Shown piece after piece: positions 1 to 63,149 of a stretch of 64,000 nt of DNA. Location of the stretch: contig CM067306.1 of NCBI GenBank assembly GCA_034231615.1, positions 36,872,071 to 36,936,070 of the forward strand. The letters run 5' to 3'. The number at the start of each line of letters is the position of its first letter. Within the stretch, counting starts at the first letter, position 1. The notes under the pieces are model-generated. The model was not told where the DNA came from and searched no databases. It was given only the letters and a program-made list of their open reading frames with translations. A program made the position numbers and the translations under genes. This DNA is from Meghimatium bilineatum. Lineage: Eukaryota; Mollusca; Gastropoda; Stylommatophora; Philomycidae.

Positions 1-3000
1 TTTCTAATGATAAACTAGATACATTTATGAAATGTGTTGAAAGGTTTGAAAAAGAAAATAAAAAAATATATTTCTAATGATAAACTAGATACATTTAAGA
101 AATGTGTTGAAAAGTTCGAACAAGAAAATAAAAAAATATATTTCTAGTGATAAACTAGATACATTTATGAAATGTGTTGAAAGGTTTGAATAAGAAAATA
201 AAAAAATATATTTCTAATGATAAACTAGATACATTTAAGAAATGTGTTGAAAAGTTTGAACAAGGAAATCATCAAATATATTTCTAGTGATAAATTAGAT
301 ACATTTATGAAATATGTTGACAGGTTTGAAAAAGAAAATAAAAAAATATATTTCTAATGATAAACTAGATACATTTATGAAATGTGTTGAAATGTTTGAG
401 AAAAAAAATCAAAAAATAAATTTCTATTGATCAACTATATACACTTATGAAATGTGTTGAAAAGTTTGAAAAAGAAAATGAAAAGATATATTTCTAGTGA
501 TAATCTACCGGTAGATACATTTATGAAATATGTTGAAAAGTTTGAACAAGAAAATGAAAAGATATATTTCTAGTGATAATCTACCGGTAGATACATTTAT
601 GAGATGTGTTGACAAGATTGAAAAAGAAAATAGAAAAATATATTTCTAATGATAAACTACTGATAGATACATTTATGAGATGTGTTGAAAAGTTTGATAA
701 AGAAAATAAAAAAATATATTTCTAGTGATAAACTACCGGTAGATACATTTATTAGAAATGTTGAAAAGATTCAAAATTAAAAAATATATTTCTAGTGATA
801 AATTAGATACATTTATGAAATATGTTGACAGGTTTGAAAAAGAAAATAAAAAAATATATTTCTAATGATAAACTAGATACATTTAAGAAATGTGTTGAAA
901 AGTTCGAACAAGAAAATCAAAAAATATATTTCTAGTGATAAACTAGATACATTTATGAAATGTGTTGAAAGGTTTGAATAAGAAAATAAAAAAATATATT
1001 TCTAATGATAAACTAGATACATTTAAGAAATGTGTTGAAAAGTTTGAACAAGGAAATCATCAAATATATTTCTAGTGATAAATTAGATACATTTATGAAA
1101 TATGTTGACAGGTTTGAAAAAGAAAATAAAAAAATATATTTCTAGTGATAAACTAGATACATTTAAGAAATGTGTTTAAAAGTTTGAAAAAGAAAATTAA
1201 AAAATATATTTCTAGTGATAAACATGAAATATGTCGAAAAGTTTGAATATGAAAAAAATATATTTCTAGTAATAAACTAGATACATTTAGGAAATGTGTT
1301 GACAAGTTTGAAAAAAAAATATATATATATATTTCTAATGATAAACTAGATACATTTATGAAATGTGTTGAAAAGTTTGAACAAGAAAATGAAAAGATAT
1401 ATTTCTAGTGATAATCTTCTGGTAGATACATTTATGAAATGTGTTGAAAAGTTTGGAAAAGAAAATCAAAAAATATATTTCTAGTGATGAATTAGGTAGA
1501 TACATTTATGAAATGTGTTGAAAAGTTTGAAAAAGAAAATCAAAAAATATATTTCTAGTGATAAATTAGATACATTTATGAAATGTGTTGAAAAGTTTGA
1601 ACAAGAAAATCAAAAAATATATTTCTAGTGATAAACTAGATACATTTATGAAATGTGTTGACAAGTTTGAAAAAAAAATATATATATATATATTTCTAAT
1701 GATAAACTAGATACATTTATGAAATGTGTTGAAAAGTTTGAACAAGAAAATCAAAAAATATATTTCTAGTGATAAACTAGATACATTTATGAAATGTGTT
1801 GACAAGTTTGAAAAAAAAAAATATATATATATTTCTAATGATAAACTAGATACATTTATGAAATGTGTTGAAAAGTTTGAAAAAAAAAATAAAAAAATAT
1901 ATTTCTAATAATAAACTACTGGTAGATACATTTATGAAATGTGTTGAAAAGTTTCAAAATCAAAGTAATATTTTTCTAATGATAAACTAGATACATTTAT
2001 GAAATGTGTTGAAAGGTTTGAAAAAGAAAATAAAAAAATATATTTCTAATGATAAACTAGATACATTTAAGAAATGTGTTGAAAAGTTCGAACAAGAAAA
2101 TAAAAAAATATATTTCTAGTGATAAACTAGATACATTTATGAAATGTGTTGAAAGGTTTGAATAAGAAAATAAAAAAATATATTTCTAATGATAAACTAG
2201 ATACATTTAAGAAATGTGTTGAAAAGTTTGAACAAGGAAATCATCAAATATATTTCTAGTGATAAATTAGATACATTTATGAAATATGTTGACAGGTTTG
2301 AAAAAGAAAATAAAAAAATATATTTCTAATGATAAACTAGATACATTTATGAAATGTGTTGAAATGTTTGAGAAAAAAAATCAAAAAATAAATTTCTATT
2401 GATCAACTATATACACTTATGAAATGTGTTGAAAAGTTTGAAAAAGAAAATGAAAAGATATATTTCTAGTGATAATCTACCGGTAGATACATTTATGAAA
2501 TATGTTGAAAAGTTTGAACAAGAAAATGAAAAGATATATTTCTAGTGATAATCTACCGGTAGATACATTTATGAGATGTGTTGACAAGATTGAAAAAGAA
2601 AATAGAAAAATATATTTCTAATGATAAACTACTGATAGATACATTTATGAGATGTGTTGAAAAGTTTGATAAAGAAAATTTAAAAATATATTTCTAATGA
2701 TAAACTACCAGTAGATACATTTATGAGATGTGTTGAAAAGTTTGAAAAGAAAATAAAAAAATATATTTCTAATGATAAACTAGATACATTGCTGAAATGT
2801 GTTGAAAGTTTCAAAATCAAAGAAATATTTTTCTAATGATAAATTAGATACATTTATGAAATGTGTTGAAAAGTTTGAACAAGAAAATTTAAAAAAAATA
2901 TTTATAATGATAAACTAGATACATTTATGAAATGTGTTGAAAAGATTGAAAAATAAAATAAAAAAATATATTTCTAGTGATAAACTACCGGTAGATACAT

Positions 3001-6000
3001 TTATTAGAAATGTTGAAAAGATTCAAAATTAAAAAATATATTTCTAGTGATAAATTAGATACATTTATGAAATATGTTGACAGGTTTGAAAAAGAAAATT
3101 AAAAAATATATTTCTAATGATAAACTAGATACATTTAAGAAATGTGTTGAAAAGTTTGAACAAGAAAATCAAAAAATATATTTCTAGTGATAAATTAGAT
3201 ACATTTATGAAATGTGTTGACAGGTTTGAAAAGAAAATCAAAAAATATATTTCGAGTGATAAACTAGATAAATTTAAGAAATGTGTTGAAAAGTTTGAAA
3301 AAGAAAATTAAAAAATATATTTCTAGTGATAAACATGAAATATGTCGAAAAGTTTGAAAATGAAAAAAATATATTTCTAGTAATAAACTAGATACATTTA
3401 TGAAATGTGTTGAAAAGTTTGAACAAGAAAATTTTATAAAAAATATTTCTAATGATAAACTAGATACATTTATGAAATGTGTTGAAAAGTTTGGAAAAGA
3501 AAATCAAAAAATATATTTCTAGTGATAAACTATATACATTTATGAAATGTGTTGAAAAGTTTGAACAAGAAAATGAAAAGAAATATTTCTAGTGATAATC
3601 TTCTGGTAGATACATTTATGAAATGTGTTGAAAAGTTTGGAAAAGAAAATCAAAAAATATATTTCTAGTGATGAATTAGGTAGATACATTTATGAAATGT
3701 GTTGAAAAGTTTGCAAAAGAAAATCAAAAAATATATTTCTAGTGATAAATTAGATACATTTATGAAATGTGTTGAAAAGTTTGAACAAGAAAATCAAAAA
3801 ATATATTTCTAGTGATAAACTAGATACATTTATGAAATGTGTTGACAAGTTTGAAAAAAAAAATAAAAAAATATATTTCTAATAATAAACTACTGGTAGA
3901 TACATTTATGAAATGTGTTGAAAAGTTTCAAAATCAAAGTAATATTTTTCTAATGATAAACTAGATACATTTATGAAATGTGTTGAAAGGTTTGAAAAAG
4001 AAAATAAAAAAATATATTTCTAATGATAAACTAGATACATTTAAGAAATGTGTTGAAAAGTTCGAACAAGAAAATCAAAAAATATATTTCTAGTGATAAA
4101 CTAGATACATTTATGAAATGTGTTGAAAGGTTTGAATAAGAAAATAAAAAAATATATTTCTAATGATAAACTAGATACATTTAAGAAATGTGTTGAAAAG
4201 TTTGAACAAGGAAATCATCAAATATATTTCTAGTGATAAATTAGATACATTTATGAAATATGTTGACAGGTTTGAAAAAGAAAATAAAAAAATATATTTC
4301 TAGTGATAAACTAGATACATTTAAGAAATGTGTTTAAAAGTTTGAAAAAGAAAATTAAAAAATATATTTCTAGTGATAAACATGAAATATGTCGAAAAGT
4401 TTGAATATGAAAAAAATATATTTCTAGTAATAAACTAGATACATTTAGGAAATGTGTTGACAAGTTTGAAAAAAAAATATATATATATATTTCTAATGAT
4501 AAACTAGATACATTTATGAAATGTGTTGAAAAGTTTGAACAAGAAAATGAAAAGATATATTTCTAGTGATAATCTTCTGGTAGATACATTTATGAAATGT
4601 GTTGAAAAGTTTGGAAAAGAAAATCAAAAAATATATTTCTAGTGATGAATTAGGTAGATACATTTATGAAATGTGTTGAAAAGTTTGCAAAAGAAAATCA
4701 AAAAATATATTTCTAGTGATAAATTAGATACATTTATGAAATGTGTTGAAAAGTTTGAACAAGAAAATCAAAAAATATATTTCTAGTGATAAACTAGATA
4801 CATTTATGAAATGTGTTGACAAGTTTGAAAAAAAAAATAAAAAAATATATTTCTAATAATAAACTACTGGTAGATACATTTATGAAATGTGTTGAAAAGT
4901 TTCAAAATCAAAGTAATATTTTTCTAATGATAAACTAGATACATTTATGAAATGTGTTGAAAGGTTTGAAAAAGAAAATAAAAAAATATATTTCTAATGA
5001 TAAACTAGATACATTTAAGAAATGTGTTGAAAAGTTCGAACAAGAAAATCAAAAAATATATTTCTAGTGATAAACTAGATACATTTATGAAATGTGTTGA
5101 AAGGTTTGAATAAGAAAATAAAAAAATATATTTCTAATGATAAACTAGATACATTTAAGAAATGTGTTGAAAAGTTTGAACAAGGAAATCATCAAATATA
5201 TTTCTAGTGATAAATTAGATACATTTATGAAATATGTTGACAGGTTTGAAAAAGAAAATAAAAAAATATATTTCTAGTGATAAACTAGATACATTTAAGA
5301 AATGTGTTTAAAAGTTTGAAAAAGAAAATTAAAAAATATATTTCTAGTGATAAACATGAAATATGTCGAAAAGTTTGAATATGAAAAAAATATATTTCTA
5401 GTAATAAACTAGATACATTTAGGAAATGTGTTGACAAGTTTGAAAAAAAAATATATATATATATTTCTAATGATAAACTAGATACATTTATGAAATGTGT
5501 TGAAAAGTTTGAACAAGAAAATGAAAAGATATATTTCTAGTGATAATCTTCTGGTAGATACATTTATGAAATGTGTTGAAAAGTTTGGAAAAGAAAATCA
5601 AAAAATATATTTCTAGTGATGAATTAGGTAGATACATTTATGAAATGTGTTGAAAAGTTTGAAAAAGAAAATCAAAAAATATATTTCTAGTGATAAATTA
5701 GATACATTTATGAAATGTGTTGAAAAGTTTGAACAAGAAAATCAAAAAATATATTTCTAGTGATAAACTAGATACATTTATGAAATGTGTTGACAAGTTT
5801 GAAAAAAAAATATATATATATATATTTCTAATGATAAACTAGATACATTTATGAAATGTGTTGAAAAGTTTGAACAAGAAAATCAAAAAATATATTTCTA
5901 GTGATAAACTAGATACATTTATGAAATGTGTTGACAAGTTTGAAAAAAAAAAATATATATATATTTCTAATGATAAACTAGATACATTTATGAAATGTGT

Positions 6001-9000
6001 TGAAAAGTTTGAAAAAAAAAATAAAAAAATATATTTCTAATAATAAACTACTGGTAGATACATTTATGAAATGTGTTGAAAAGTTTCAAAATCAAAGTAA
6101 TATTTTTCTAATGATAAACTAGATACATTTATGAAATGTGTTGAAAGGTTTGAAAAAGAAAATAAAAAAATATATTTCTAATGATAAACTAGATACATTT
6201 AAGAAATGTGTTGAAAAGTTCGAACAAGAAAATAAAAAAATATATTTCTAGTGATAAACTAGATACATTTATGAAATGTGTTGAAAGGTTTGAATAAGAA
6301 AATAAAAAAATATATTTCTAATGATAAACTAGATACATTTAAGAAATGTGTTGAAAAGTTTGAACAAGGAAATCATCAAATATATTTCTAGTGATAAATT
6401 AGATACATTTATGAAATATGTTGACAGGTTTGAAAAAGAAAATAAAAAAATATATTTCTAATGATAAACTAGATACATTTATGAAATGTGTTGAAATGTT
6501 TGAGAAAAAAAATCAAAAAATAAATTTCTATTGATCAACTATATACACTTATGAAATGTGTTGAAAAGTTTGAAAAAGAAAATGAAAAGATATATTTCTA
6601 GTGATAATCTACCGGTAGATACATTTATGAAATATGTTGAAAAGTTTGAACAAGAAAATGAAAAGATATATTTCTAGTGATAATCTACCGGTAGATACAT
6701 TTATGAGATGTGTTGACAAGATTGAAAAAGAAAATAGAAAAATATATTTCTAATGATAAACTACTGATAGATACATTTATGAGATGTGTTGAAAAGTTTG
6801 ATAAAGAAAATAAAAAAATATATTTCTAGTGATAAACTACCGGTAGATACATTTATTAGAAATGTTGAAAAGATTCAAAATTAAAAAATATATTTCTAGT
6901 GATAAATTAGATACATTTATGAAATATGTTGACAGGTTTGAAAAAGAAAATAAAAAAATATATTTCTAATGATAAACTAGATACATTTAAGAAATGTGTT
7001 GAAAAGTTTGAACAAGAAAATCAAAAAATATATTTCTAGTGATAAATTAGATACATTTATGAAATGTGTTGACAGGTTTGAAAAGAAAATCAAAAAATAT
7101 ATTTCGAGTGATAAACTAGATAAATTTAAGAAATGTGTTGAAAAGTTTGAAAAAGAAAATTAAAAAATATATTTCTAGTGATAAACATGAAATATGTCGA
7201 AAAGTTTGAAAATGAAAAAAATATATTTCTAGTAATAAACTAGATACATTTATGAAATGTGTTGAAAAGTTTGAACAAGAAAATTTTATAAAAAATATTT
7301 CTAATGATAAACTAGATACATTTATGAAATGTGTTGAAAAGTTTGGAAAAGAAAATCAAAAAATATATTTCTAGTGATAAACTATATACATTTATGAAAT
7401 GTGTTGAAAAGTTTGGAAAAGAAAATCAAAAAATATATTTCTAGTGATAAACTATATACATTTATGAAATGTGTTGAAAAGTTTGAAAAAGAAAATGAAA
7501 AGATATATTTCTAGTGATAATCTACCGGTAGATACATTTATGAAATATGTTGAAAAGTTTGAACAAGAAAATTAAAAAATATATTTCTAATGATAAACTA
7601 CCAGTAGATACATTTATGAGATGTGTTGAAAAGTTTGAAAAGAAAATAAAAAAATATATTTCTAATGATAAACTAGATACATTGCTGAAATGTGTTGAAA
7701 AGTTTCAAAATCAAAGAAATATTTTTATAATGATAAATTAGATACATTTATGAAATGTGTTGAAAAGTTTGAACAAGAAAATTTAAAAAAAATATTTATA
7801 ATGATAAACTAGATACATTTATGAAATGTGTTGAAAAGATTGAAAAATAAAATAAAAAAATATATTTCTAATGATAAACTACTGGTAGATACATTTATGA
7901 GATGTGTTGAAAAGTTTGAAAAAAAATGAAAAGATATATTTCTAGTGATAATTTACCAGTAGATACATTTATGAAATGTGTTGAAAAGTTTGGAAAAGAA
8001 AATCAAAAAATATATTTCTAGTGATGAATTAGATACATTTATGAAATGTGTTGAAAAGTTTGAAAAAGAAAATCAAAAAATATATTTCTAGTGATAAATT
8101 AGATAAATTTATGAAATGTGTTGAAAAGTTTGAACAAGAAAATCAAAAAATATATTTCTAGTGATAAACTAGATACATTTATGAAATGTGTTGACAAGTT
8201 TGAAAAAAAAAATATATATATATTTCTAATGATAAACTAGATACATTTATGAAATGTGTTGAAAAGTTTGAACAAGAAAATCAAAAAATATATTTCTAAT
8301 GATAAACTAGATACATTTATGAAATGTGTTGACAAGTTGGAAAAAAAAAATAAAAAAATATATTTCTAATAATAAACTACTGGTAGATACATTTATGAAA
8401 TGTGTTGAAAAGTTTCAAAATCAAAGTAATATTTTTCTAATGATAAACTAGATACATTTATGAAATGTGTTGAAAGGTTTGAAAAAGAAAATAAAAAAAT
8501 ATATTTCTAATGATAAACTAGATACATTTTAGAAATGTGTTGAAAAGTTCGAACAAGAAAATCAAAAAATATATTTCTAGTGATAAACTAGATACATTTA
8601 TGAAATGTGTTGAAAGGTTTGAATAAGAAAATAAAAAAATATATTTCTAATGATAAACTAGATACATTTAAGAAATGTGTTGAAAAGTTTGAACAAGGAA
8701 ATCATCAAATATATTTCTAGTGATAAATTAGATACATTTATGAAATATGTTGACAGGTTTGAAAAAGAAAATAAAAAAATATATTTCTAGTGATAAACTA
8801 GATACATTTAAGAAATGTGTTTAAAAGTTTGAAAAAGAAAATTAAAAAATATATTTCTAGTGATAAACATGAAATATGTCGAAAAGTTTGAATATGAAAA
8901 AAATATATTTCTAGTAATAAACTAGATACATTTAGGAAATGTGTTGACAAGTTTGAAAAAAAAATATATATATATATTTCTAATGATAAACTAGATACAT

Positions 9001-10249
9001 TTATGAAATGTGTTGAAAAGTTTGGAAAAAAAATAAAAAAATATATTTCTAATAATAAACTACTGGTAGATACATTTATGAAATGTGTTGAAAAGTTTCA
9101 AAATCAAAGTAATATTTTTCTAATGATAAACTAGATACATTTATGAAATGTGTTGAAAGGTTTGAAAAAGAAAATAAAAAAATATATTTCTAATGATAAA
9201 CTAGATACATTTAAGAAATGTGTTGAAAAGTTCGAACAAGAAAATCAAAAAATATATTTCTAGTGATAAACTAGATACATTTATGAAATGTGTTAAAAGG
9301 TTTGAATAAGAAAATAAAAAAATATATTTCTAATGATAAACTAGATACATTTAAGAAATGTGTTGAAAAGTTTGAACAGGGAAATCATCAAATATATTTC
9401 TAGTGATAAATTAGATACATTTATGAAATATGTTGACAGGTTTGAAAAAGAAAATAAAAAAATATATTTCTAGTGATAAACTAGATACATTTAAGAAATG
9501 TGTTTAAAAGTTTGAAAAAGAAAATTAAAAAATATATTTCTAGTGATAAACATGAAATATGTCGAAAAGTTTGAATATGAAAAAAATATATTTCTAGTAA
9601 TAAACTAGATACATTTATGAAATGTGTTGAAAAGTTTGAACAAGAAAATGAAAAGATATATTTCTAGTGATAATCTTCTGGTAGATACATTTATGAAATG
9701 TGTTGAAAAGTTTGGAAAAGAAAATCAAAAAATATATTTCTAGTGATGAATTAGGTAGATACATTTATGAAATGTGTTGAAAAGTTTGAAAAAGAAAATC
9801 AAAAAATATATTTCTAGTGATAAATTAGATACATTTATGAAATCTGTTGAAAAGTTTGAACAAGAAAATCAAAAAATATATTTCTAGTGATAAACTAGAT
9901 ACATTTATGAAATGTGTTGACAAGTTTGAAAAAAAAATATATATATATATTTCTAATGATAAACTAGATACATTTATGAAATGTGTTGAAAAGTTTGAAC
10001 AAGAAAATCAAAAAATATATTTCTAGTGATAAACTAGATACATTTATGAAATGTGTTGACAAGTTTGAAAAAAAAAAATATATATATATTTCTAATGATA
10101 AACTAGATACATTTATGAAATGTGTTGAAAAGTTTGAAAAAAAAAATAAAAAAATATATTTCTAATAATAAACTACTGGTAGATACATTTATGAAATGTG
10201 TTGAAAAGTTTCAAAATCAAAGTAATATTTTTCTAATGATAAACTAGAT

Positions 10250-13200: not shown

Positions 13201-13890
13201 TGAAAAGTTTGAAAAAAAAAATAAAAAAATATATTTCTAATAATAAACTACTGGTAGATACATTTATGAAATGTGTTGAAAAGTTTCAAAATCAAAGTAA
13301 TATTTTTCTAATGATAAACTAGATACATTTATGAAATGTGTTGAAAGGTTTGAAAAAGAAAATAAAAAAATATATTTCTAATGATAAACTAGATACATTT
13401 AAGAAATGTGTTGAAAAGTTCGAACAAGAAAATCAAAAAATATATTTCTAGTGATAAACTAGATACATTTATGAAATGTGTTGAAAGGTTTGAATAAGAA
13501 AATAAAAAAATATATTTCTAATGATAAACTAGATACATTTAAGAAATGTGTTGAAAAGTTTGAACAAGGAAATCATCAAATATATTTCTAGTGATAAATT
13601 AGATACATTTATGAAATATGTTGACAGGTTTGAAAAAGAAAATAAAAAAATATATTTCTAGTGATAAACTAGATACATTTAAGAAATGTGTTTAAAAGTT
13701 TGAAAAAGAAAATTAAAAAATATATTTCTAGTGATAAACATGAAATATGTCGAAAAGTTTGAATATGAAAAAAATATATTTCTAGTAATAAACTAGATAC
13801 ATTTATGAAATGTGTTGAAAAGTTTGAACAAGAAAATGAAAAGATATATTTCTAGTGATAATCTTCTGGTAGATACATTTATGAAATGTG
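10250..13890 (+). repeat. Satellite block repeated 22.13 kb downstream (32390-36020)
   Basis: The order of monomer variants here is repeated at 32390-36020 with an offset of about 22130 bp. Shared rare markers include the TCTAGTCATAAAC variant at 12535 and 34664 and the shortened AAAAATATATATTTTTCTAA junction at about 12165 and 34295. The right part of the array is therefore a near copy of an internal part. Confidence 0.8.
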
Positions 13891-32900: not shown

Positions 32901-34339
32901 ATATTTCTAGTGATAATCTTCTGGTAGATACATTTATGAAATGTGTTGAAAAGTTTGGAAAAGAAAATCAAAAAATATATTTCTAGTGATGAATTAGGTA
33001 GATACATTTATGAAATGTGTTGAAAAGTTTGCAAAAGAAAATCAAAAAATATATTTCTAGTGATAAATTAGATACATTTATGAAATGTGTTGAAAAGTTT
33101 GAACAAGAAAATCAAAAAATATATTTCTAGTGATAAACTAGATACATTTATGAAATGTGTTGACAAGTTTGAAAAAAAAAATATATATATATATTTCTAA
33201 TGATAAACTAGATACATTTATGAAATGTGTTGAAAAGTTTGGAAAAAAAAATAAAAAAATATATTTCTAATAATAAACTACTGGTAGATACATTTATGAA
33301 ATGTGTTGAAAAGTTTCAAAATCAAAGTAATATTTTTCTAATGATAAACTAGATACATTTATGAAATGTGTTGAAAGGTTTGAAAAAGAAAATAAAAAAA
33401 TATATTTCTAATGATAAACTAGATACATTTAAGAAATGTGTTGAAAAGTTCGAACAAGAAAATCAAAAAATATATTTCTAGTGATAAACTAGATACATTT
33501 ATGAAATGTGTTAAAAGGTTTGAATAAGAAAATAAAAAAATATATTTCTAATGATAAACTAGATACATTTAAGAAATGTGTTGAAAAGTTTGAACAAGGA
33601 AATCATCAAATATATTTCTAGTGATAAATTAGATACATTTATGAAATATGTTGACAGGTTTGAAAAAGAAAATAAAAAAATATATTTCTAGTGATAAACT
33701 AGATACATTTAAGAAATGTGTTTAAAAGTTTGAAAAAGAAAATTAAAAAATATATTTCTAGTGATAAACATGAAATATGTCGAAAAGTTTGAATATGAAA
33801 AAAATATATTTCTAGTAATAAACTAGATACATTTATGAAATGTGTTGAAAAGTTTGAACAAGAAAATGAAAAGATATATTTCTAGTGATAATCTTCTGGT
33901 AGATACATTTATGAAATGTGTTGAAAAGTTTGGAAAAGAAAATCAAAAAATATATTTCTAGTGATGAATTAGGTAGATACATTTATGAAATGTGTTGAAA
34001 AGTTTGAAAAAGAAAATCAAAAAATATATTTCTAGTGATAAATTAGATACATTTATGAAATGTGTTGAAAAGTTTGAACAAGAAAATCAAAAAATATATT
34101 TCTAGTGATAAACTAGATACATTTATGAAATGTGTTGACAAGTTTGAAAAAAAAATATATATATATATTTCTAATGATAAACTAGATACATTTATGAAAT
34201 GTGTTGAAAAGTTTGAACAAGAAAATCAAAAAATATATTTCTAGTGATAAACTAGATACATTTATGAAATGTGTTGACAAGTTTGAAAAAAAAAATATAT
34301 ATTTTTCTAATGATAAACTAGATACATTTATGAAATGTG
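26982..34339 (+). repeat. Satellite block, copy 2 of the ~7.3-kb tandem duplication
   Basis: Second copy of the preceding block, directly adjacent to it. Monomer variants appear in the same order with very few differences, which implies a recent unequal exchange or replication-based duplication. It carries one additional monomer near 28520 (containing GAAAATTTTATAAAAAATAT) that copy 1 lacks. Confidence 0.85.
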
Positions 34340-36917
34340 TTGAAAGGTTTGAAAAAGAAAATAAAAAAATATATTTCTAATGATAAACTAGATACATTTA
34401 AGAAATGTGTTGAAAAGTTCGAACAAGAAAATAAAAAAATATATTTCTAGTGATAAACTAGATACATTTATGAAATGTGTTGAAAAGTTTGGAAAAGAAA
34501 ATCAAAAAATATATTTCTAGTGATGAATTAGGTAGATACATTTATGAAATGTGTTGAAAAGTTTGCAAAAGAAAATCAAAAAATATATTTCTAGTGATAA
34601 ATTAGATACATTTATGAAATGTGTTGAAAAGTTTGAACAAGAAAATCAAAAAATATATTTCTAGTCATAAACTAGATACATTTATGAAATGTGTTGACAA
34701 GTTTGAAAAAAAATATATATATATATATTTCTAATGATAAACTAGATACATTTATGAAATGTGTTGAAAAGTTTGAAAAAAAAAATAAAAAAATATATTT
34801 CTAATAATAAACTACTGGTAGATACATTTATGAAATGTGTTGAAAAGTTTCAAAATCAAAGTAATATTTTTCTAATGATAAACTAGATACATTTATGAAA
34901 TGTGTTGAAAGGTTTGAAAAAGAAAATAAAAAAATATATTTCTAATGATAAACTAGATACATTTAAGAAATGTGTTGAAAAGTTCGAACAAGAAAATAAA
35001 AAAATATATTTCTAGTGATAAACTAGATACATTTATGAAATGTGTTGAAAAGTTTGGAAAAGAAAATCAAAAAATATATTTCTAGTGATGAATTAGGTAG
35101 ATACATTTAAGAAATGTGTTGAAAAGTTTGCAAAAGAAAATCAAAAAATATATTTCTAGTGATAAATTAGATACATTTATGAAATGTGTTGAAAAGTTTG
35201 AACAAGAAAATCAAAAAATATATTTCTAGTGATAAACTAGATACATTTATGAAATGTGTTGACAAGTTTGAAAAAAAAAATATATATATATATTTCTAAT
35301 GATAAACTAGATACATTTATGAAATGTGTTGAAAAGTTTGAAAAAAAAAATAAAAAAATATATTTCTAATAATAAACTACTGGTAGATACATTTATGAAA
35401 TGTGTTGAAAAGTTTCAAAATCAAAGTAATATTTTTCTAATGATAAACTAGATACATTTATGAAATGTGTTGAAAGGTTTGAAAAAGAAAATAAAAAAAT
35501 ATATTTCTAATGATAAACTAGATACATTTAAGAAATGTGTTGAAAAGTTCGAACAAGAAAATCAAAAAATATATTTCTAGTGATAAACTAGATACATTTA
35601 TGAAATGTGTTGAAAGGTTTGAATAAGAAAATAAAAAAATATATTTCTAATGATAAACTAGATACATTTAAGAAATGTGTTGAAAAGTTTGAACAAGGAA
35701 ATCATCAAATATATTTCTAGTGATAAATTAGATACATTTATGAAATATGTTGACAGGTTTGAAAAAGAAAATAAAAAAATATATTTCTAGTGATAAACTA
35801 GATACATTTAAGAAATGTGTTTAAAAGTTTGAAAAAGAAAATTAAAAAATATATTTCTAGTGATAAACATGAAATATGTCGAAAAGTTTGAATATGAAAA
35901 AAATATATTTCTAGTAATAAACTAGATACATTTATGAAATGTGTTGAAAAGTTTGAACAAGAAAATGAAAAGATATATTTCTAGTGATAATCTTCTGGTA
36001 GATACATTTATGAAATGTGTTGAAAAGTTTGAAAAAGAAAATCAAAAAATATATTTCTAGTGATAAATTAGATACATTTATGAAATGTGTTGAAAAGTTT
36101 GAACAAGAAAATCAAAAAATATATTTCTAGTGATAAACTAGATACATTTATGAAATGTGTTGACAAGTTTGAAAAAAAAAAAATATATATATTTCTAATG
36201 ATAAACTAGATACATTTATGAAATGTGTTGAAAAGTTTGAAAAAAAAAATAAAAAAATATATTTCTAATAATAAACTACTGGTAGATACATTTATGAAAT
36301 GTGTTGAAAAGTTTCAAAATCAAAGTAATATTTTTCTAATGATAAACTAGATACATTTATGAAATGTGTTGAAAGGTTTGAAAAAGAAAATAAAAAAATA
36401 TATTTCTAATGATAAACTAGATACATTTAAGAAATGTGTTGAAAAGTTCGAACAAGAAAATCAAAAAATATATTTCTAGTGATAAACTAGATACATTTAT
36501 GAAATGTGTTGAAAGGTTTGAATAAGAAAATAAAAAAATATATTTCTAATGATAAACTAGATACATTTAAGAAATGTGTTGAAAAGTTTGAACAAGGAAA
36601 TCATCAAATATATTTCAAGTGATAAATTAGATACATTTATGAAATATGTTGACAGGTTTGAAAAAGAAAATAAAAAAATATATTTCTAGTGATAAACTAG
36701 ATACATTTAAGAAATGTGTTTAAAAGTTTGAAAAAGAAAATTAAAAAATATATTTCTAGTGATAAACATGAAATATGTCGAAAAGTTTGAATATGAAGTT
36801 TGAACTAATTTGACCTCCATTTACTTTTTTATTCTCTTATAAAATGGATTTAAACGAATTAAAACTTTCAAGTGAAATGACTCCTGAAAATATGAATAAT
36901 GCATATAAAACAAATAT

Positions 36918-36929
36918 GATTATTAAATT
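36918..36929 (+). repeat. Target-site duplication, left copy (LINE at 36930)
   Basis: GATTATTAAATT here is repeated exactly at 37274-37285 and brackets the LINE fragment. A 12-bp direct repeat is a usual product of target-primed reverse transcription. Confidence 0.8.
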
Positions 36930-37273
36930 GATAGATTGCGAAATGAATATATCAGGGAAAGAATAGGTATAATATCTTGTACAGATTACATAGAGAGAGA
37001 ACAGATCAAGTTGTTTGGCCATATTATGAGAATGCATCATGAAAAGTTGCCCTTACAAATCATATAACCAAATGAGATCAGGGTACAAGGCCAGAGGAAG
37101 ACCATGGAAAAGATGGATAGAAAACATCAGGGACATTCTTAACAGACACGGTCATAGCACAGCCGAGGCCACACATCTGGCTTTAGAACACAAGCTCGAG
37201 CTCCAATCATCCCTACGCTTAACTGCAAGAGTGGATCACAAACCACCTAGAGAAAGACAATAGACAATAGATA
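36930..37273 (+). mobile_element. 5'-truncated LINE, C-terminal end of ORF2
   Basis: The first frame reads DRLRNEYIRERIGIISCTDY and then EQIKLFGHIMRMHHEKLP, the typical FGH-hydrophobic-R segment near the end of LINE ORF2 proteins. After a frameshift near 37060 the next frame gives KARGRPWKRWIENIRDILN, the RGRP-x-x-RW motif of the same protein end. The element finishes in a short tandem tail (AGACAATAGACAATAGATA). It is bracketed by perfect 12-bp target-site duplications and is heavily 5'-truncated (344 bp), so it is a dead insertion. Non-LTR class is clear; the clade is not. Confidence 0.85.
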
Positions 37274-37285
37274 GATTATTAAATT
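37274..37285 (+). repeat. Target-site duplication, right copy
   Basis: Second GATTATTAAATT, matching 36918-36929 exactly. Confidence 0.8.
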
Positions 37286-38111
37286 TATGAATATTAAAAC
37301 CGAACAACCTAATTTATCACAAGATCAGATTTGTAGTAAATTAGGTATTTCTTCTTCTACAATAAAAAAGAATAAGACAAGATTTAAATGTAAAATTTCC
37401 ATATAAATATGATATTCCTTTTAAAAAGTAACAAGAATAAAAAAAATATTGAAATTAGTCATAAACATTAAAAATAAATAAAGAAACAAGGAAATTAAAA
37501 ATTAAAAAAATAAAAGAGAAAATTGGTAATGGAAGGGATAATAATAAATTATTTAATGTTAATAAAGCAATAGAAGAAGTGTAAATAATTTATTGTTATA
37601 TTTGATGTTGAGAATTTCATTCTCTAAAAATGGAAGAACTAAAATTATTTGTTAAAAAAAATAAAAGTGATGAAATTAAAGAACAAATAAAAAATACTTG
37701 AAAAACAAAATTATAAAACAAAAGATTATTTATTAAAACAATATATTGTAAAAAATATGATTAATAAAGAAGTTTAAAAATAGTTGGTGAACAAATGATT
37801 GAGTATGAAGAAGAATTAGAAGAAAAACAATGTTTAATGAATGAATAATGAAACAATAATTGGTGGTGATAAATTAATTAAATAATTCAGAAATATAATA
37901 AAAAAAATATCAAACAAATTGATCCTAGTAAAGTTGCTTATAAAGATAAGAGTGCGTAAAAGATTATTATATAAATTAAACAACAAAATAAAAGAATTAG
38001 AAAAGTAGAAATAATAGTATAAATAATTACTGATAAAATATATATTTTAAATTCATATTTTAAAATTATGATTTATTTTTTTATCTATTTCTTCACATAT
38101 TTTTACCACCC

Positions 38112-38384
38112 GTGTGTTGTTGGGGCCCGAAAGGGGAGAAAAGAATAGCAACACTGTGTACCTTTCATGCATGTCATACAAGGTGACTAAGGAGGTTATG
38201 GGATGGAGTTGGCTGTCCCATTAAATAGGATCAGTGACCCAAAGCCATGCTGAAGTTGGATGTATCAGGCTGAAAGGTGCAGATATCACAGCTTTGCTGT
38301 AAACCATGACACAACACATTCCATTCTCCGGACTACATCCTGCTAATCTGAAGGAGTTTGAGAATGAATGCAGAAGAAGAAGAA
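38112..38384 (+). mobile_element. Interspersed repeat A (SINE-like), near full length
   Basis: Best copy of family A. It begins GTGTGTTGTTGGGGCCCGAA, passes through GGAGGTTATGGGATGGAGTT and CTGTAAACCATGACACAACA, and ends GAGTTTGAGAATGAATGC followed by a GAAGAAGAAG tail. Other copies lie at about 40468 (-), 47118 (+, split), 49566 (+), 51199 (+), 51548 (-), 53549 (+), 57577 (-, split), 60539 (+) and 61779 (-). A GAA-repeat tail and the 12-bp duplication around the 40468 copy indicate retroposition. I see no clear pol III promoter in the head. The short ORFs across it are not genes. Confidence 0.8.
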
Positions 38385-38457
38385 ATGTACAGATGAAATG
38401 AGATGGGGTCATTCACAAGTAGAAATCCTCATTATATTGGCATGGCTTCTATTGTTT

Positions 38458-38690
38458 CTTCATTGTTCATTCTCAAACTCCCACTGGAACTCTCTTGTTG
38501 CAGGACAATGATCCATCCTACTAGGTTACATAATTTCTCAAACTCCCACTGGAACTCTCTTGTTGCAGGACAATGATCCTACAAGATTTCAAGTAGGATG
38601 TAGTCCAGGGAATGGAAATGCATTGTGTTTCCGATTTATTTGCGCTAATGGCCTAATACATCAGACTTTGACTGTATTGCTAGTTTACTG
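38458..38690 (-). mobile_element. Interspersed repeat B (SINE-like), minus strand, with internal duplication
   Basis: Family B, read on the minus strand. Its 3' end (ATTCTCAAACTCCCACTGGA on the + strand) lies at the left. A stretch starting TCTCAAACTCCCACTGGAAC occurs twice, at about 38474 and 38540, so part of the element was duplicated. The remainder (GGATGTAGTCCAGGGAATGG, then TTATTTGCGCTAATGGCC) is the usual B body. Confidence 0.75.
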
Positions 38691-38904
38691 TTGCATAATG
38701 GTTAGTCTGATAAGCAAATAGTGCGACCTTCAAACCTTCCACATTCAGGAACCATTGTCATTAAGTTAGCACAGACTTGAAACACTGTGTTCCTGTGTGA
38801 CTGCACAACAAAGGTGATCCTTAGGATTTAACTCAACAGTTGTGAAATATGATATTGTTTACAATAAATCTAAGAAGTATTTACATGAATGATACTGTCC
38901 ACAG

Positions 38905-39107
38905 ATATTTGGGAAGGAAACGTTTACGCAAAGACTTAGAGACAATGGTAGAGGCAGCGATCGGTTGGCGTGGCCACACTATTCCTATTGGACAATCAGT
39001 TACATATTGTCTATCCGGGGTGCACGAAAACTGCTAGATCAGAAACCTTTGTCAAAGATGGTGCCTGTGGATGAGTACCTTCCAATCATGTTTGATAGGC
39101 ATTCAGA
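38905..39107 (+). CDS. COLGALT: Procollagen galactosyltransferase, penultimate coding exon (partial gene)
   Basis: COLGALT enzymes (GT25 family) transfer galactose from UDP-galactose to hydroxylysine of collagen in the ER. The exon follows a CAG acceptor at 38902-38904 and ends at a GTGAGT donor at 39108. Its start reads [16 protein letters not shown]. After a frame change near 38951-38956 it continues [20 protein letters not shown], then [20 protein letters not shown] and [10 protein letters not shown]. These match the family order YxGRKR, YSYWT, GARKLL, PLSKM, PVDEYLP. The exon is 203 bp; the splice phases at both ends call for 204, so one base is missing (GAGGGC expected, GAGGC seen). That is either a sequencing/assembly indel or a real lesion. 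Upstream exons are not visible. COLGALT1 versus COLGALT2 cannot be decided. Confidence 0.9.
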
Positions 39108-39114
39108 GTGAGTA

Positions 39115-39232
39115 CTTGTTTAATTGTCAGCTAAAAGATATAATATCTTAGTGTTAAAGGTGATGTTTTATTCTTGTTTAATTGAGAGCTAAAAACAAAT
39201 TATGCCTTAGTGTTAAAAGTGATAAGATAAAT
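39115..39232 (+). repeat. 58-bp tandem duplication just inside the intron
   Basis: CTTGTTTAATTG at 39115 recurs at 39173, each followed by AGCTAAAA and then CTTAGTGTTAAA. Two diverged units start 8 bp after the exon donor site. Confidence 0.75.
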
Positions 39233-39419
39233 TATAACACCCACCATCCAGTGGGGTAGAACAAGGTATTAAGTTAGAGCTTGGAATCACATGTGCTGTG
39301 GGGTTCTGGGAAGGATGTATAGAATAATATTGTGATGAGCTTGTATGACAACTGACTTTCTTGAACTTCTAGTTAATGGCAAAGAATAGGGCCAGTGTCT
39401 TATTTTCAATCATGTCGTT

Positions 39420-39980
39420 GAAGGCGACTAAGTACAGTTGGGACACAGTAGAGGCAACTAAGTACAGTTGGGGCACAGTAGAGGCGACTAAGTACAGTTG
39501 GGGCACAGTAGAGGCGACTAAGTACAGTTGGGGCACAGTAGAGGCGACTAAGTACAGTTGGGGCACAGTAGAGGCGACTAAGTACAGTTGGGGTACAGTA
39601 GAGGCGACTAAGTACAGTTGGGGCACAGTAGAGGCGACTAAGTACAGTTGGGGCACAGTAGAGGCGACTAAGTACAGTTGGGGTACAGTAGAGGCGACCA
39701 AGTACAGTTGAGGTACAGTAGAGGCAACTAAGTACAGTTGGGGTACAGTAGAGGCGACTAAGTACAGTTGGGGTACAGTAGAGGCGACTAAGTACAGTTG
39801 GGGTACAGTAGAGGCGACTAAGTACAGTAGAGGCGACTAAGTACAGTTGGGGTACAGTAGAGGCGACTAAGTACAGTTGGGGTACAGTAGAGGCAACCAA
39901 GTACAGTTGAGGTACAGTAGAGGCGACTAAGTACAGTTGAGGTACAGTAGAGGCGACTAAGTACAGTTGGGGTACAGTAG
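39420..39980 (+). repeat. 30-bp minisatellite in the COLGALT intron, ~19 copies
   Basis: The unit starts GAGGCGACTAAGTACAGTTG and ends GGG(C/T)ACAGTA. Left units mostly carry GGGCACAGTA and right units GGGGTACAGTA, so variants are polarised along the array. One shortened unit lies at about 39826. Because 30 is a multiple of three, both strands stay open for over 100 codons; these frames (EATKYSWGTV on +) are artefacts. Confidence 0.95.
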
Positions 39981-39984
39981 ACTG

Positions 39985-40405
39985 ACAAGTTGTCACCTGC
40001 GGAAAAATCGTTGTCACATATTGTCACAATTTTGTCTTCCAACAAATCAACCCCCATGGATGATGAAGAGATACCAGCCAGGAAATTGCACCTTTTGTGG
40101 CAGACTCCAATGTGACGGAGACTATGTGACTGAGACTGTGTGATGGGGACTATGTGACGGAGAATGTTAGTTGTGTCATCACTACTGATGGGTCAATAGA
40201 TCTGACATAAGAATGACAACATAGTTGGCCCAGATTTGTGTGGTGTGCTCCTGACTCCTGGAATGCCTGCCTTTGGGGACTAAACATGCATTCAGAAACC
40301 TCCATGATGCAACAATGCCTTTGAGACAACCTTATAGAGTCTAGGTTACACAAGAGCCTCAGTTACACAACTGAGAAGAAGCTGTGCTATTGTCAGAAAG
40401 GCTAT
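39985..40405 (-). mobile_element. Interspersed repeat C, minus-strand copy
   Basis: Reverse complement of the body of family C seen at 45010-46170 and 49820-50930. Shared landmarks are CTCAGTTGTGTAACTGAG, the region around GTTGTCTCAAAGGCATTG, TTTAGTCCCCAAAGGCAGGC, and GTCAGATCTATTGACCCATC. It also carries a small tandem expansion of GACTATGTGAC at about 40110-40165. No coding potential recognised. The left limit next to the minisatellite is uncertain. Confidence 0.65.
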
Positions 40406-40455
40406 GGGCTATCAAATATAGCTCATATATATAGCTATATAGCTACCACCTCAAA

Positions 40456-40467
40456 ACTAAAGGGATT
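40456..40467 (+). repeat. Target-site duplication, left copy (repeat A at 40468)
   Basis: ACTAAAGGGATT here is repeated exactly at 40602-40613, flanking a truncated A element. Confidence 0.8.
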
Positions 40468-40601
40468 CTTCTTCTTCGTTCATTCTCAAACTCCTGCAGA
40501 TTAGCAGGTTGTAGTCCGGAGAACGGAATGCATTGTGTCATGGTTTACATCATTGCTGTGATATATGCGCCTTTCGGCCTGACACATCTGACTTCAGCAT
40601 T
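40468..40601 (-). mobile_element. 5'-truncated repeat A insertion
   Basis: Only the 3' ~130 bp of family A is present, in minus orientation, starting at its GAA tail (CTTCTTCTTCGTTC on the + strand). Perfect 12-bp duplications flank it on both sides. 5' truncation, a simple-repeat tail and target-site duplication together mean the A family moved by LINE-type retroposition. Confidence 0.85.
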
Positions 40602-40613
40602 ACTAAAGGGATT
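40602..40613 (+). repeat. Target-site duplication, right copy
   Basis: Second ACTAAAGGGATT, matching 40456-40467. Confidence 0.8.
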
Positions 40614-40644
40614 ATTTCATAATCATCATTATAATACTGTGACT

Positions 40645-40712
40645 TGCAATGTATGTTGTAAGAGGCAGCTAAGGAGGGCTTGGAGTGTGGTTGGTTACTC
40701 CATTTCATAGAA
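40645..40712 (+). mobile_element. Repeat A, internal fragment
   Basis: GTATGTTGTAAGAGGCAGCT followed by AAGGAGGGCTTGGAGTGTGG corresponds to the middle of family A (GTCATAAGAGGCGACTAAGG in better copies). Old and short. Confidence 0.55.
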
Positions 40713-41389
40713 AGACACACAAAAATAGTAGCATACCATGTATAAACTAATTTGATTATAAACCGAGGACATGATTTTAATGTCTGAAATTTGACACAAG
40801 TCTAGAATCCATTTATAGGCCGAGGTGTAGAATTCCATTATTATAATAATGAAGGGGCAATCGCCACATGGTTTGCATCTGTGGGTATCACCAACTAGAC
40901 AAACCATTAATGCAAAAGAAAGTCTTAGTAGATGACATGCCGTTATATTGAGGTTCTCTTATAGAAGCTTCATGGCACATCATATATACAATTATGCTTT
41001 TATTTTATTGTTGCAATGTATTTTATGCTTTATTTGTATATATGTATGCACCTTCTGTGGTTGGGATAAAGCCAGAGATGTACTGTGCAGCACTGGGGAG
41101 GGGAGGAGGAAGCTGACAGCACTATATGTTTCCTATGCTGAGGCCCATCATAGAGGCACAATGACTTAGGAAGTGACAATCATTTTGACTTGAACATTTG
41201 GTTGCATGCCTGAAACAATAGAGAAGTCTGACATAACCAGTAGTCAATTGGTGGCGGGGAATGAACATAGTGAACCCTACCTTAGCTCCAGTGATTTGAG
41301 CATTACTTAGGTAGAAAACTCACAAACCAAATTAGACAATTACCAATTTATTATAATTATATTTTTTTTTTCATCGCATTTATTGTTTT
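40713..41389. other. Intronic DNA with no recognised feature
   Basis: Single-copy-looking A/T-rich sequence inside the COLGALT intron. Short ORFs of about 70 codons occur on both strands, but none shows a recognisable domain or splice context. Some GGGGAGG-type G-rich stretches lie around 41090-41110. Confidence 0.5.
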
Positions 41390-41585
41390 TCATGCCATGT
41401 GCATCTTCGCTTGCGAAGGAGGAACATCATAAGGTATCCTCTGGCTCCAAATGGGTTGGACCAAAAATCCACAGACCTCCCATCAATATAATGCTAGCAC
41501 AACAAATATTATTTACAGACGAGCAGATACAAGATCGTCATAAAACAAAGTCTTCGCTTAACATCCTACAACTGAACATGGTATA
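41390..41585 (+). mobile_element. Possible LINE 5' piece (start of endonuclease domain)
   Basis: The open frame ends KTKSSLNILQLNMV. An I-L-Q-x-N motif preceded by a short basic stretch is how the AP-like endonuclease domain of many LINE ORF2 proteins begins. The match is short, and the sequence is cut by a B fragment straight after. It could be chance. Confidence 0.3.
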
Positions 41586-41593
41586 GGAAACTC

Positions 41594-41651
41594 TTCTTCT
41601 TCAGCGTTCATTCTCAAACTCCCACCAGATCTCTCTTGTAGCAGGACATAT
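41594..41651 (-). mobile_element. Repeat B, 3'-end fragment
   Basis: CTTCAGCGTTCATTCTCAAA followed by CTCTCTTGTAGCAGGACA is the 3' end of family B in minus orientation; the rest is absent. Confidence 0.7.
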
Positions 41652-41706
41652 GTTTGCCAAATATTGCATGAGTTTGGCTAAATGTTGTTATGTATTTGGT
41701 TAAATA

Positions 41707-41885
41707 ATAATGGATGGCAGAGCACCAGGGCAGAGGAGGAAAGGCAGAGCAAGAAGATGATGGACTGACAACATTAAATATAACATGAATATGTCATTGG
41801 AGAATGCAAGCCGCATCGCCCACGACAGAGAATGGTTCAGGGAGTTCATTAGAAAGACAACGTTCTGGAGAGAATGTGTCACTGA
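41707..41885 (+). mobile_element. LINE ORF2 C-terminal fragment
   Basis: The frame reads MDGRAPGQRRKGRARRWTDN followed by SLENASRIAHDREWFREFIR. This is the R-x-x-GRxRxxWxDNI ... ASRxAxDRxxWRxF ending shared by many LINE ORF2 proteins. One stop precedes the W (GATGATGGACTGAC). It differs in sequence from the fragments at 36930 and 44357, so it belongs to another LINE lineage. Confidence 0.8.
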
Positions 41886-42258
41886 CAGTGTGACTAAATT
41901 TTGTATGTGTTTGACCAAATGTTGTGTGTGTTTGACCAAATGTTGTATATGTTTGACCAAATGTTGTATGTGTTTGACCAATTGTTGTATGTGTTTGACC
42001 AATTGTTGTATGTGTTTGACCAAATGTTGTATGTGTTGACCAAATGTTGTATGTATTTGACCAAATGTTGCATGTGTTTGATCAAATTGTGTATGTGTTT
42101 GACCAAATTGTGTATGTTTGACCAAATTTTCTATGTTTTACTAAATGTTGTATGTGTTTGACCAAATTTTGTATATTTGACCAAATGTTGTATGTGTTTG
42201 ACCAAATGTTGTATGTGTTTGACCAAATGTTGTATGTATTTGACCAAATGTTGTAGAT
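41886..42258 (+). repeat. ~22-bp minisatellite (TTTGACCAAATGTTGTATGT), ~17 copies
   Basis: Irregular units of 20-22 bp centred on GTGTTTGACCAAATGTTGTA. A diverged precursor-like stretch (ATGTTTGCCAAATATTGCAT) lies at about 41649-41700, on the other side of the LINE fragment. The open frames across it on both strands are repeat artefacts. Confidence 0.9.
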
Positions 42259-42329
42259 ATCAAAGCCAAATGGTAAACTATGATGTAACATATTATCTTA
42301 TCCGGACTACATCCTGTTCAGTCCTTTAC

Positions 42330-42460
42330 AATGCCAAAGTCATATGTGTTGGGCCATTGAGGCAAATAAAACTGTGACAAAACATTTACGTTCTCTGGTG
42401 TATGTCCTGCTGGAAATCTAGTACGAACATCCTGCTACAGGAAAGATCTTATGGGAGTAT
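42330..42460 (+). mobile_element. Repeat B, diverged plus-strand copy
   Basis: GTGTTGGGCCATTGAGGCAA, then ACATTTACGTTCTCTGG and CCTGCTGGAAATCTAGTACG, follow the order of family B. The GAA tail is missing. Confidence 0.65.
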
Positions 42461-42489
42461 GGCAACGAGCGTAAAGAAAAGAGAAATAA

Positions 42490-42660
42490 TATAGCCTGAC
42501 ATGCACAGTGTAAGAGGTAACTAAAGAGAGGAGGCAAGGTGTCTACCCTGTGTTGAATTAAAAAGTCAAGCAAAAAATAGAAACAATGTGACCCAACATG
42601 CATGATGTAAGAGGCAGTTAAGATGGAATTGACTGTGTCAACTCATAGGTTAAAGTGACC
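42490..42660 (+). mobile_element. Repeat A, diverged fragment(s)
   Basis: GACATGCACAGTGTAAGAGG and, again, AACATGCATGATGTAAGAGG, each followed by an AACTAA/AGTTAAG and GGA stretch, match the same internal part of family A twice. The second continues into AGGTTAAAGTGACCCAC. Probably two overlapping old insertions or an internal duplication. Confidence 0.5.
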
Positions 42661-42679
42661 CACAAACAGTGCTTATTCT

Positions 42680-42822
42680 ATATTTTCATGTTTATGTAAT
42701 TATTGCTTATTATACATTTTTGCTTAAAAATTTTTGCTTATTATGTATTTTTACTTTTTAATAGTTTACTTATTATAAATTGTTCCTTATTATGAATTGT
42801 TACTTATAAATTTTTGCAGAAC
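42680..42822 (+). repeat. A/T-rich degenerate tandem repeat (TTGCTTATTAT type)
   Basis: Irregular units built on TTACTTATTATAAATTGTT and TTTTTGCTTATTAT. The same unit type returns at 43800-43935, so the two tracts bracket about 1 kb of intron. Confidence 0.7.
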
Positions 42823-43075
42823 AATACGGTATCAAGGGTCCATGTATCAATTAGCTGGATTTTAAACAAACTTACAAATATTTCATACGATCAATATTTG
42901 TGTTCTTTGGTTCACACACATTTAGCGAGCTCAATGAAATTACATCATTTACAGATCTTGTCACTGTAATTCAAAATAGCTAATAGTAGTTACGCATGGA
43001 GACTAAAACTTGCAACGATTTAATGGTTTTTGTATTTTCAAGATACGAGGTACTGTTAGAGTTTAGATGTTGTGT

Positions 43076-43091
43076 TGGGGGGGGGGGGGGA
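43076..43091 (+). repeat. G homopolymer
   Basis: Run of about 15 G residues. Similar homopolymers of the other strand (C runs) lie near 45922, 56080, 56320 and 56620. Lengths in such runs are unreliable in assemblies. Confidence 0.8.
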
Positions 43092-43207
43092 GATTAGACT
43101 CAGTGTTAGGACTAATTCTAACGCAAACCCCCTTTCTGATTTAATCAATTCAAGTTGGTAACTACATTGAAAGGGAGACAAATGATTTCTGCTTACTCTT
43201 TGTTTAT

Positions 43208-43217
43208 GTATTACCTC
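43208..43217 (+). repeat. Target-site duplication, left copy (repeat B at 43218)
   Basis: GTATTACCTC, repeated exactly at 43367-43376. Confidence 0.75.
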
Positions 43218-43366
43218 TCTCGCCGAAGATGGATGTATCTGGCCATTGGCGCAAATAAAATGGTGACACAACGCATTTCCATTCTCTGAACTGGAAATCT
43301 AGTAGGACTATGGTCCTGCTACAAAGAAGATCCAACGAGAGTTTTAGAATGAACGCTGAAGAAGAA
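43218..43366 (+). mobile_element. Repeat B, complete copy with target-site duplication
   Basis: Defines the B unit: about 149 bp from TCTCGCCGAAGATGGATG, through GGCCATTGGCGCAAATAAAA, TGACACAACGCATTTCCATT and CTGGAAATCTAGTAGGAC, to TTTTAGAATGAACGCTGAAG with a GAAGAA tail. Perfect 10-bp direct repeats flank it. From about its 15th base the sequence runs parallel to the 3' half of family A (GGATGTGTC, then GACACAACGCATT, then GAATGAACGC plus GAA repeats), so A and B share descent. Confidence 0.85.
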
Positions 43367-43376
43367 GTATTACCTC
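43367..43376 (+). repeat. Target-site duplication, right copy
   Basis: Second GTATTACCTC, matching 43208-43217. Confidence 0.75.
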
Positions 43377-43799
43377 CCATGCGAATATTTGAGCGACAAT
43401 TATTGGGCAGGTTTTACATATATAAATATGCCAAGACAATAAATGGGGGAGTATTTAATTGGAGGGTTGTATGAGTGAAAACATGATTGGGTTTGAATGC
43501 AGGGTATTATTTTGTGTCGGATAATGAATTTAATCGTCACAATAGAAGTTAAATGTCATAGTATGACACTGTGCGCATTTCACGTTTGTAAGTACTCTTC
43601 GTGACTGCAACAATTGTACTGCGTCTTTGTCAGTCAAAGGCAAATTCAACATACATACGGCAGCCATTTTACTAAAGATATGTAGTGGAAGAGTGACGTA
43701 ACGGAAGTGTGAATGGCATTACCAAGTTCTAAAAAATACGACAGGAGCGCATTTAAAAAAAAAGTGTAAGCAGGAAATGCTACATGGACACTTGATCCT
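43377..43799. other. Intronic DNA, no gene recognised
   Basis: Single-copy-looking sequence. A short stretch at about 43660-43712 contains GGCAGCCATTTT and GTGACGTAACGGAAGTG, which resemble YY1, CRE and ETS sites, but nothing else supports a promoter there. Confidence 0.45.
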
Positions 43800-43935
43800 G
43801 TATTGTTCCATTTTTGCTTATAAATTGTTACTTATTGTAAATTGTTACTTATTATAAATTGTTACTTATAAATTTAGCGTATTATAAGTTGTTACTTATT
43901 GTAAATTGTTACTTGTAATTTTTTTTTAAATTATA
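43800..43935 (+). repeat. A/T-rich degenerate tandem repeat before the last exon
   Basis: Units of about 18-20 bp on TTATAAATTGTTACTTATTG. Same type as 42680-42822. The tract ends about 14 bp before the splice acceptor and supplies its T-rich run. Confidence 0.75.
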
Positions 43936-43948
43936 AACTATCGTTTAG

Positions 43949-44216
43949 AGAACAGTGGAAACAGCATTTTTCTCCACGGGACCTAGTTGGCCTATCAGCG
44001 GAGCCTTACCTTCTATATCCAACACATTACACTGGAGAACCATATTACATCTCCGACACTGAAGATTCAATCATCATTGACAAGGGTCATGCTCGTAAAG
44101 GTGCTGCAGACAGTGAACTGATGGTAGATACAAACATAGCAAGACCTGATGAGACAGAAACACAGATTGACGGTGTTATAAAGCTGGAAGGGCCAGTTGT
44201 CAAGGATGAGTTTTAA
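43949..44216 (+). CDS. COLGALT: Procollagen galactosyltransferase, last coding exon with KDEF terminus
   Basis: Terminal exon of the same GT25 gene. The acceptor TCGTTTAG ends at 43948. One base completes the split codon left by the 39107 donor (GA plus A gives Glu), so phases agree. The frame then reads EQWKQHFSPRDLVGLSAEPY, LLYPTHYTGEPYYISDTEDS and an acidic tail, ending in KDEF and a TAA at 44214-44216. SAEPxLxYPTHYTGxPxYxSDTE is the hallmark end of animal COLGALT1/2, which finish in RDEL; KDEF would be the ER-retention signal here. The exon adds 88 residues and has no internal stop. The intron between the two exons is 4841 bp and full of repeats. The tail after SDTEDS is shorter than in the vertebrate enzymes as I recall them. 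Confidence 0.93.
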
Positions 44217-46170: not shown

Positions 46171-46659
46171 GTAGATGTTGTTATTCTGCACATGTTGGTT
46201 GCAGAGTCGCTAATACCGATTCAGGGTAAGTGTGCTTTTAGATGGCAATGTTCCATTCTCAGTCGAAATACCCTGACTTGTTCCTGTCAGTTGAATTTGT
46301 TCATGCTGTCTTGCTTGGGGCTGTAGTTTCCATTTAGTTCTCTCCACTAAAGTCTCATAGATTATTTTAGCGGAGACGCTACTTCCCTGAAATTTTGAAG
46401 TATGTGGGATTGAGGGAGATTATCTGCTATTTTTGACAATTCGTCTTTGCTTTCGGGCATTCATTTAGCATCTAATTATTCTTTATATTTGTACAATATC
46501 TTTACTTTTTCTAAATACTCTATTTAGCTGAAAGGGAAAATAGCTCTGAATTTCTAAACCACCACCCCATACTTCCTTATTTACAGATCTGGTGCTATGC
46601 CATTATTGGAGCTAGTTTTCAAGTAGTAATGTTAAAGTTAACCATAGCATTTATTAAAT
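46171..46659. other. No recognised feature
   Basis: Mixed-composition DNA after repeat C. I find no reading frame or repeat that I can name. Confidence 0.4.
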
Positions 46660-47505: not shown

Positions 47506-47507
47506 GG

Positions 47508-63105: not shown

Positions 63106-63149
63106 AACATAGCTGTCATCTTATTTTTACATACAGTCATATGTAATAG

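Follow-up and report, generated by a model that had tools for sequence, protein, structure and literature searches.

The COLGALT exons and satellite array of the window

The window (64,000 nucleotides of chromosome C9 of the slug Meghimatium bilineatum) combines a long satellite array with the 3′ end of a procollagen galactosyltransferase (COLGALT) gene, both on the plus strand. Its features, in window coordinates, are as follows.

1–36767, + strand: 70-bp satellite array (TRF: period 70, 525.2 copies, 84% matches; GC ~20%)
36803–38100, + strand: AT-rich segment (GC ~23%), at least 41 genome matches at ~96–98%, with a short helix-turn-helix-like remnant
38905–39107, + strand: penultimate COLGALT exon, one base short near 38953 (alignment with sister copies, PDB matches)
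39422–39981, + strand: 30-bp tandem array in the last intron (TRF), common to sister copies
43949–44216, + strand: last COLGALT exon, stop codon included, at least 146 copies in the genome
44217–64000, + strand: 3′ continuation of the repeat unit, multi-copy at 46000–47600, 58400–60500 and 59600–62400

The joined translation of the two exons matches procollagen galactosyltransferase 1 chains in PDB (best E 7.8e-34) and the splice sites of both exons are real, such that the two terminal COLGALT exons 3′ of a >36-kb array of 70-bp satellite, as given in a preliminary description of this DNA, are borne out by PDB matches and TRF respectively. That description overlooked a frameshift in 38905–39107: the penultimate exon is frameshifted because it is one base shorter than in five of seven sister copies (other frame-breaking indels occur in two of the sister copies, L003 and L005), and in the PDB matches its open frame is COLGALT-like from residue 23 onward only, where the sister exon of L006 aligns with procollagen galactosyltransferase 1 over all 67 residues. 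The exon encoding part of the catalytic domain (SLTMGEIGCFLSHYQIWEEV; Glyco_transf_25, PF01755, E 1.2e-7) is present in 56 copies elsewhere, yet the only one on C9 lies on the minus strand at 31.85 Mb, with 56 of 56 first-look candidates scored. Near C9 36.7–36.9 Mb there is no Glyco_transf_25 among the matches listed at E≤10 (best 150 of 243 candidates), and this part of C9 yielded no catalytic exon for the window copy. Given this and its frameshift, the window copy of COLGALT is a 3′ relic.

The array in the window is the right-hand end of a larger, ~128–156 kb array that is co-oriented with COLGALT. Satellite makes up at least 92% of each kb from ~C9:36781 kb to 36909 kb (~128 kb, unbroken) and, with short breaks, starts at ~C9:36753 kb, for a total of ~156 kb; the 200 kb of sequence left of the window contains zero N. 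Autocorrelation reveals two higher-order periods, one of 974 bp and one of 7354 bp; recurrent 60-mers represent 96% of those in the window array. Arrays this recurrent pose a difficulty for assembly when the HiFi reads are ~19 kb long, as reported for this assembly (PMC10770140, Table 1), and the array length is therefore uncertain. Directly left of the satellite (~C9:36728–36752 kb, L037–L039), arrays of 93-bp and 42-bp units alternate with a repeat period of 2.86 kb.

A multi-copy unit on all 25 chromosomes

The genome searched comprised 1,612,235,226 bases in 32 contigs (25 chromosomes and 7 unanchored), with the best 40 candidates scored in most DNA searches and the best 150 in most protein searches, and copy counts are therefore lower bounds. 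After setting aside 4 of 150 matches for the last exon, which belonged to the penultimate exon, at least 146 copies of the last exon remain, found on 25 of 25 chromosomes (C1–C25). These are not isolated exons: sister copies are 95.2–97.7% identical to the window across long stretches of introns and exons, and sampled pieces spanning 271 kb on C9, introns included, are multi-copy and mostly 93–98% identical. Sampled copies diverge from the column majority by ~0.8–1.5%, and the landmark order over 145 kb of C22 (48139845–48284565) is that of C9 over 271 kb. These are large blocks of >90% identity at several loci with introns included, as in segmental duplications. Retention of the introns implies copying at the DNA level, and a processed pseudogene is ruled out since introns were copied along with exons.

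The pieces around the COLGALT exons are also repeated. A query of 36768–38100 recovered the AT-rich segment, whose copies mostly start at 36803; of the 40 placed copies, 39 precede a listed last exon by 4.4–8.1 kb. The helix-turn-helix-like matches in this segment fall under every Pfam cut-off and its PHROGs matches are weak; GC beside the very AT-rich satellite and segment is 34–43%. On the other side, 62300–63560 is multi-copy, but it is in part a more general repeat because most of its matches are not close to any listed last exon. The 7 kb right of the window is multi-copy as well (best 23 candidates scored), as is a piece 200 kb left of it (L044); seven repeats of the latter piece occur at C10:25760097–25778924 with a spacing of ~2.93 kb. 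An exon of 88 residues lying 180 kb left of the window (L042:122–385; C9:36692192–36692455, minus strand) resembles ARM repeats, with Pfam Arm at E 0.1 only. Nine of its 29 genome matches, the C9 one included, are amino-acid-identical over the 88 residues, and a C17 match lies within a 1220-residue open frame. Nested in L040, L041 and L043 are frames of LINE type, whose domains are those of an endonuclease, a reverse transcriptase and RNase H.

A sharp edge right of the window, at L045:6987, was considered as a possible end of the unit and rejected, as the sister copies L046 and L047 continue past it. The edge (L045:6987–8000; C9:36943057–36944070) is a piggyBac-like insertion in the C9 copy at a TTAA site, and its zf-Tnp_2 match does not reach the Pfam cut-off.

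The unit comes in two subtypes. Among the 146 listed last exons, 86 are preceded on their own strand by a catalytic-domain exon and 17 have the opposite-strand ARM-like exon and no catalytic exon, while 43 have neither in the matches listed (2 of the 29 ARM-like matches were dropped for this count, one a paralogue at 64% and the other a fragment of 24 residues). The window copy belongs to the ARM subtype. At one place, C12:17755015–17772701, a single catalytic exon has 11 matches spaced at ~1.46 kb or multiples of it.

Numbers of copies per chromosome fit chromosome length, both for the last exon, as far as the matches listed (at least 146) go (118 merged clusters, simulated p 0.85; 146 unmerged copies, p 0.19), and for the catalytic exons (n=56, all candidates scored, p 0.34). 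Within chromosomes the distribution is non-uniform, with 0 of 146 listed copies in the first tenth of the length and 7 of 146 in the last tenth. Twenty-eight pairs of neighbours are closer than 450 kb; 20 of these are same-strand, and 19 of the 20 are spaced at 218–392 kb, such that head-to-tail neighbours lie 218–392 kb apart.

The satellite as part of the unit

A 79-mer of the satellite has 84 exact matches in the genome, in 13 clusters. As tested at the cluster ends (19 cluster-end sites stood for the 84 matches in this comparison), every match shares its strand with a listed last exon and precedes it by at most 180 kb. Such 5′ territory, if taken as 200 kb per last exon, amounts to 0.9% of the strand-genome. 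Because 84 of 84 matches lie 5′ of a last exon and on its strand, the satellite belongs to the unit; the window's own array contains no exact copy of this 79-mer. Closer to the exons, seven sister loci were compared: at L003, L006 and L007 satellite lies upstream of the AT-rich segment, past a spacer, and none was seen within 1.5 kb upstream of that segment at L002, L004, L005 and L008. At L023 the satellite starts ~0.6 kb past the catalytic exon.

In 6 of the 13 clusters (C3:61.3, C8:36.5, C16:5.7, C19:15.8, C20:62.0 and C22:71.2 Mb), a catalytic exon upstream and a last exon downstream flank the satellite on one strand, and the satellite is therefore intronic there. The preliminary proposal of a satellite inside a COLGALT intron thus holds in kind for the family, but fails for the window, given its frameshift and the position of the only C9 catalytic exon. 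The alternative offered with it, that the 3′ end of the gene was moved beside heterochromatin, comes closer for the window copy, except that gene end and satellite travel together (at least 146 last-exon copies).

Sequence conservation among the COLGALT copies

At eight loci all differences in the last exon (11 of 11) fall at third codon positions, in what is a biased sample as these loci are the best protein matches. The penultimate exon, sampled via the AT-rich segment, is no more conserved than the introns (0.80% vs 0.75–1.15%), and frame-breaking indels occur in three of its eight copies (window, L003, L005). Of the 56 copies of the 20-residue catalytic exon, 46 encode the same peptide. 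Seven of the 10 remaining copies hold a stop codon, which is above our expectation for random changes. As a sign of selection this pattern in the catalytic exon is not decisive, and we claim no function for the COLGALT copies.

A probable giant gene-bearing duplicon

We favour the explanation, at a probability of roughly 0.6, that the window is part of a giant repeat unit bearing genes and measuring at least 271 kb here, a duplicon that spread approximately in proportion to chromosome length and was then tandemly expanded. The unit contains an intron-containing COLGALT or its 3′ end alone, the AT-rich segment and large satellite arrays, and one subtype also carries the ARM-repeat-like exon on the opposite strand. 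The dispersal would have started from a COLGALT locus with intronic satellite and proceeded by duplicative insertion, the segments involved being very large. Later recombination within the arrays may have altered how long they are and given rise to tandem copies of the unit, with 3′-only subtypes such as that of the window as a result; unequal exchange inside the arrays would be the simplest source of both the tandem units and the differences in array length. Neither ends of the unit nor target-site duplications nor empty sites came to light, with one copy, that of C9, read over a long stretch, and for this reason we infer insertion rather than observe it. The absence of listed copies from the first tenth of chromosome length also speaks against this explanation.

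It is possible, if on balance unlikely, that the unit is instead a true giant mobile element with its own fixed ends and recombinase, carrying COLGALT and the ARM-like gene as cargo. High copy number, similarly low divergence across the three sampled sets (~1–1.5% from the column majority) and a spread proportional to chromosome length are all consistent with such an element, and the last of these speaks as much for a mobile element as for duplicons. We nonetheless favour a duplicon because the content of copies differs between subtypes, no shared end appears in the 272 kb read on C9, and no recombinase or transposase common to the copies was recognised in a partial scan of the frames. That scan yielded only nested LINE-type reverse transcriptase/RNase H and below-cut-off zf-Tnp_2, and the piggyBac-like piece of L045 is an insertion specific to C9 as compared with the two sister copies read. 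The fuller proposition, that a mobile unit of at least a quarter megabase moves through the slug genome and takes along, besides its own satellite arrays, two intron-containing host genes (COLGALT and the ARM-repeat-like one), is slightly more doubtful still. If true, such a mobile unit would exceed the animal elements met in the literature searched.

Misassembly had also been raised as a cause. Recurrent arrays of the kind described above could in principle produce a false join between satellite and exons, and haplotypes could be taken for copies, but many chromosomes share the same order and orientation at 2–5% divergence and no N interrupts the 200 kb upstream, which makes an assembly artefact very unlikely. 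Even less probable is an origin in a large endogenous DNA virus, amplified after it had captured genes of its host: very AT-rich satellite and segment beside DNA of 34–43% GC, together with the helix-turn-helix-like remnant, would fit, but that remnant stays below every Pfam cut-off, host introns were kept, and among the few pieces scanned no viral structural or replication gene was recognised. The genuine exons and splice sites, and the satellite between catalytic and last exons in other copies, might speak for COLGALT at this locus being an ordinary, intact gene whose giant intron holds the satellite, but this is scarcely credible and already contradicted by the frameshifted penultimate exon and by a C9 catalytic exon found only at 31.85 Mb on the opposite strand.

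Comparison with known systems

That an animal genome contains more than 100 copies of a unit this large, distributed according to chromosome length, raises the question of how DNA of such size comes to be copied and inserted. The copies also show satellite spreading as the passenger of a gene-bearing unit, and the gene annotation of Meghimatium bilineatum may contain many partial COLGALT models. Judged by titles and the start of abstracts, the literature searched holds no slug or mollusc case of such a unit, which is no proof of absence.

A close parallel exists in primates, whose interspersed segmental duplications and core duplicons are large gene-bearing blocks of high identity that retain introns, form mosaic subtypes and occur both in tandem and dispersed. 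The slug unit shares all of these properties: gene-bearing blocks, introns, high identity, mosaic subtypes, and tandem as well as dispersed copies. It differs in having more copies and larger blocks than are known for the primate duplicons, in per-chromosome counts that fit chromosome length, and in a satellite of its own in each copy family.

Other systems resemble the unit in single respects. Teratorn, described as a 41–182 kb herpesvirus-piggyBac element of fish with a transposase, terminal inverted repeats and herpesvirus genes (PMC6431247), is likewise a DNA unit of very large size that is dispersed in the genome of an animal, but the slug stretch is larger, and none of these three features was recognised in the pieces scanned. 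Starship elements, reported at up to ~700 kb (PMC12134995), are similar in size range and in carrying cargo genes, but are fungal and have a tyrosine recombinase, a gene that did not appear in the partial scan of the slug unit. Finally, the Drosophila Y-loop genes kl-3 and kl-5 are described as single Y-linked fertility genes with giant introns filled by megabases of simple satellite (PMC6508621). As in those genes, satellite DNA separates protein-coding exons in the complete slug copies; unlike the single Drosophila Y genes, the slug 70-bp satellite does so in a family of many copies, broken ones included.
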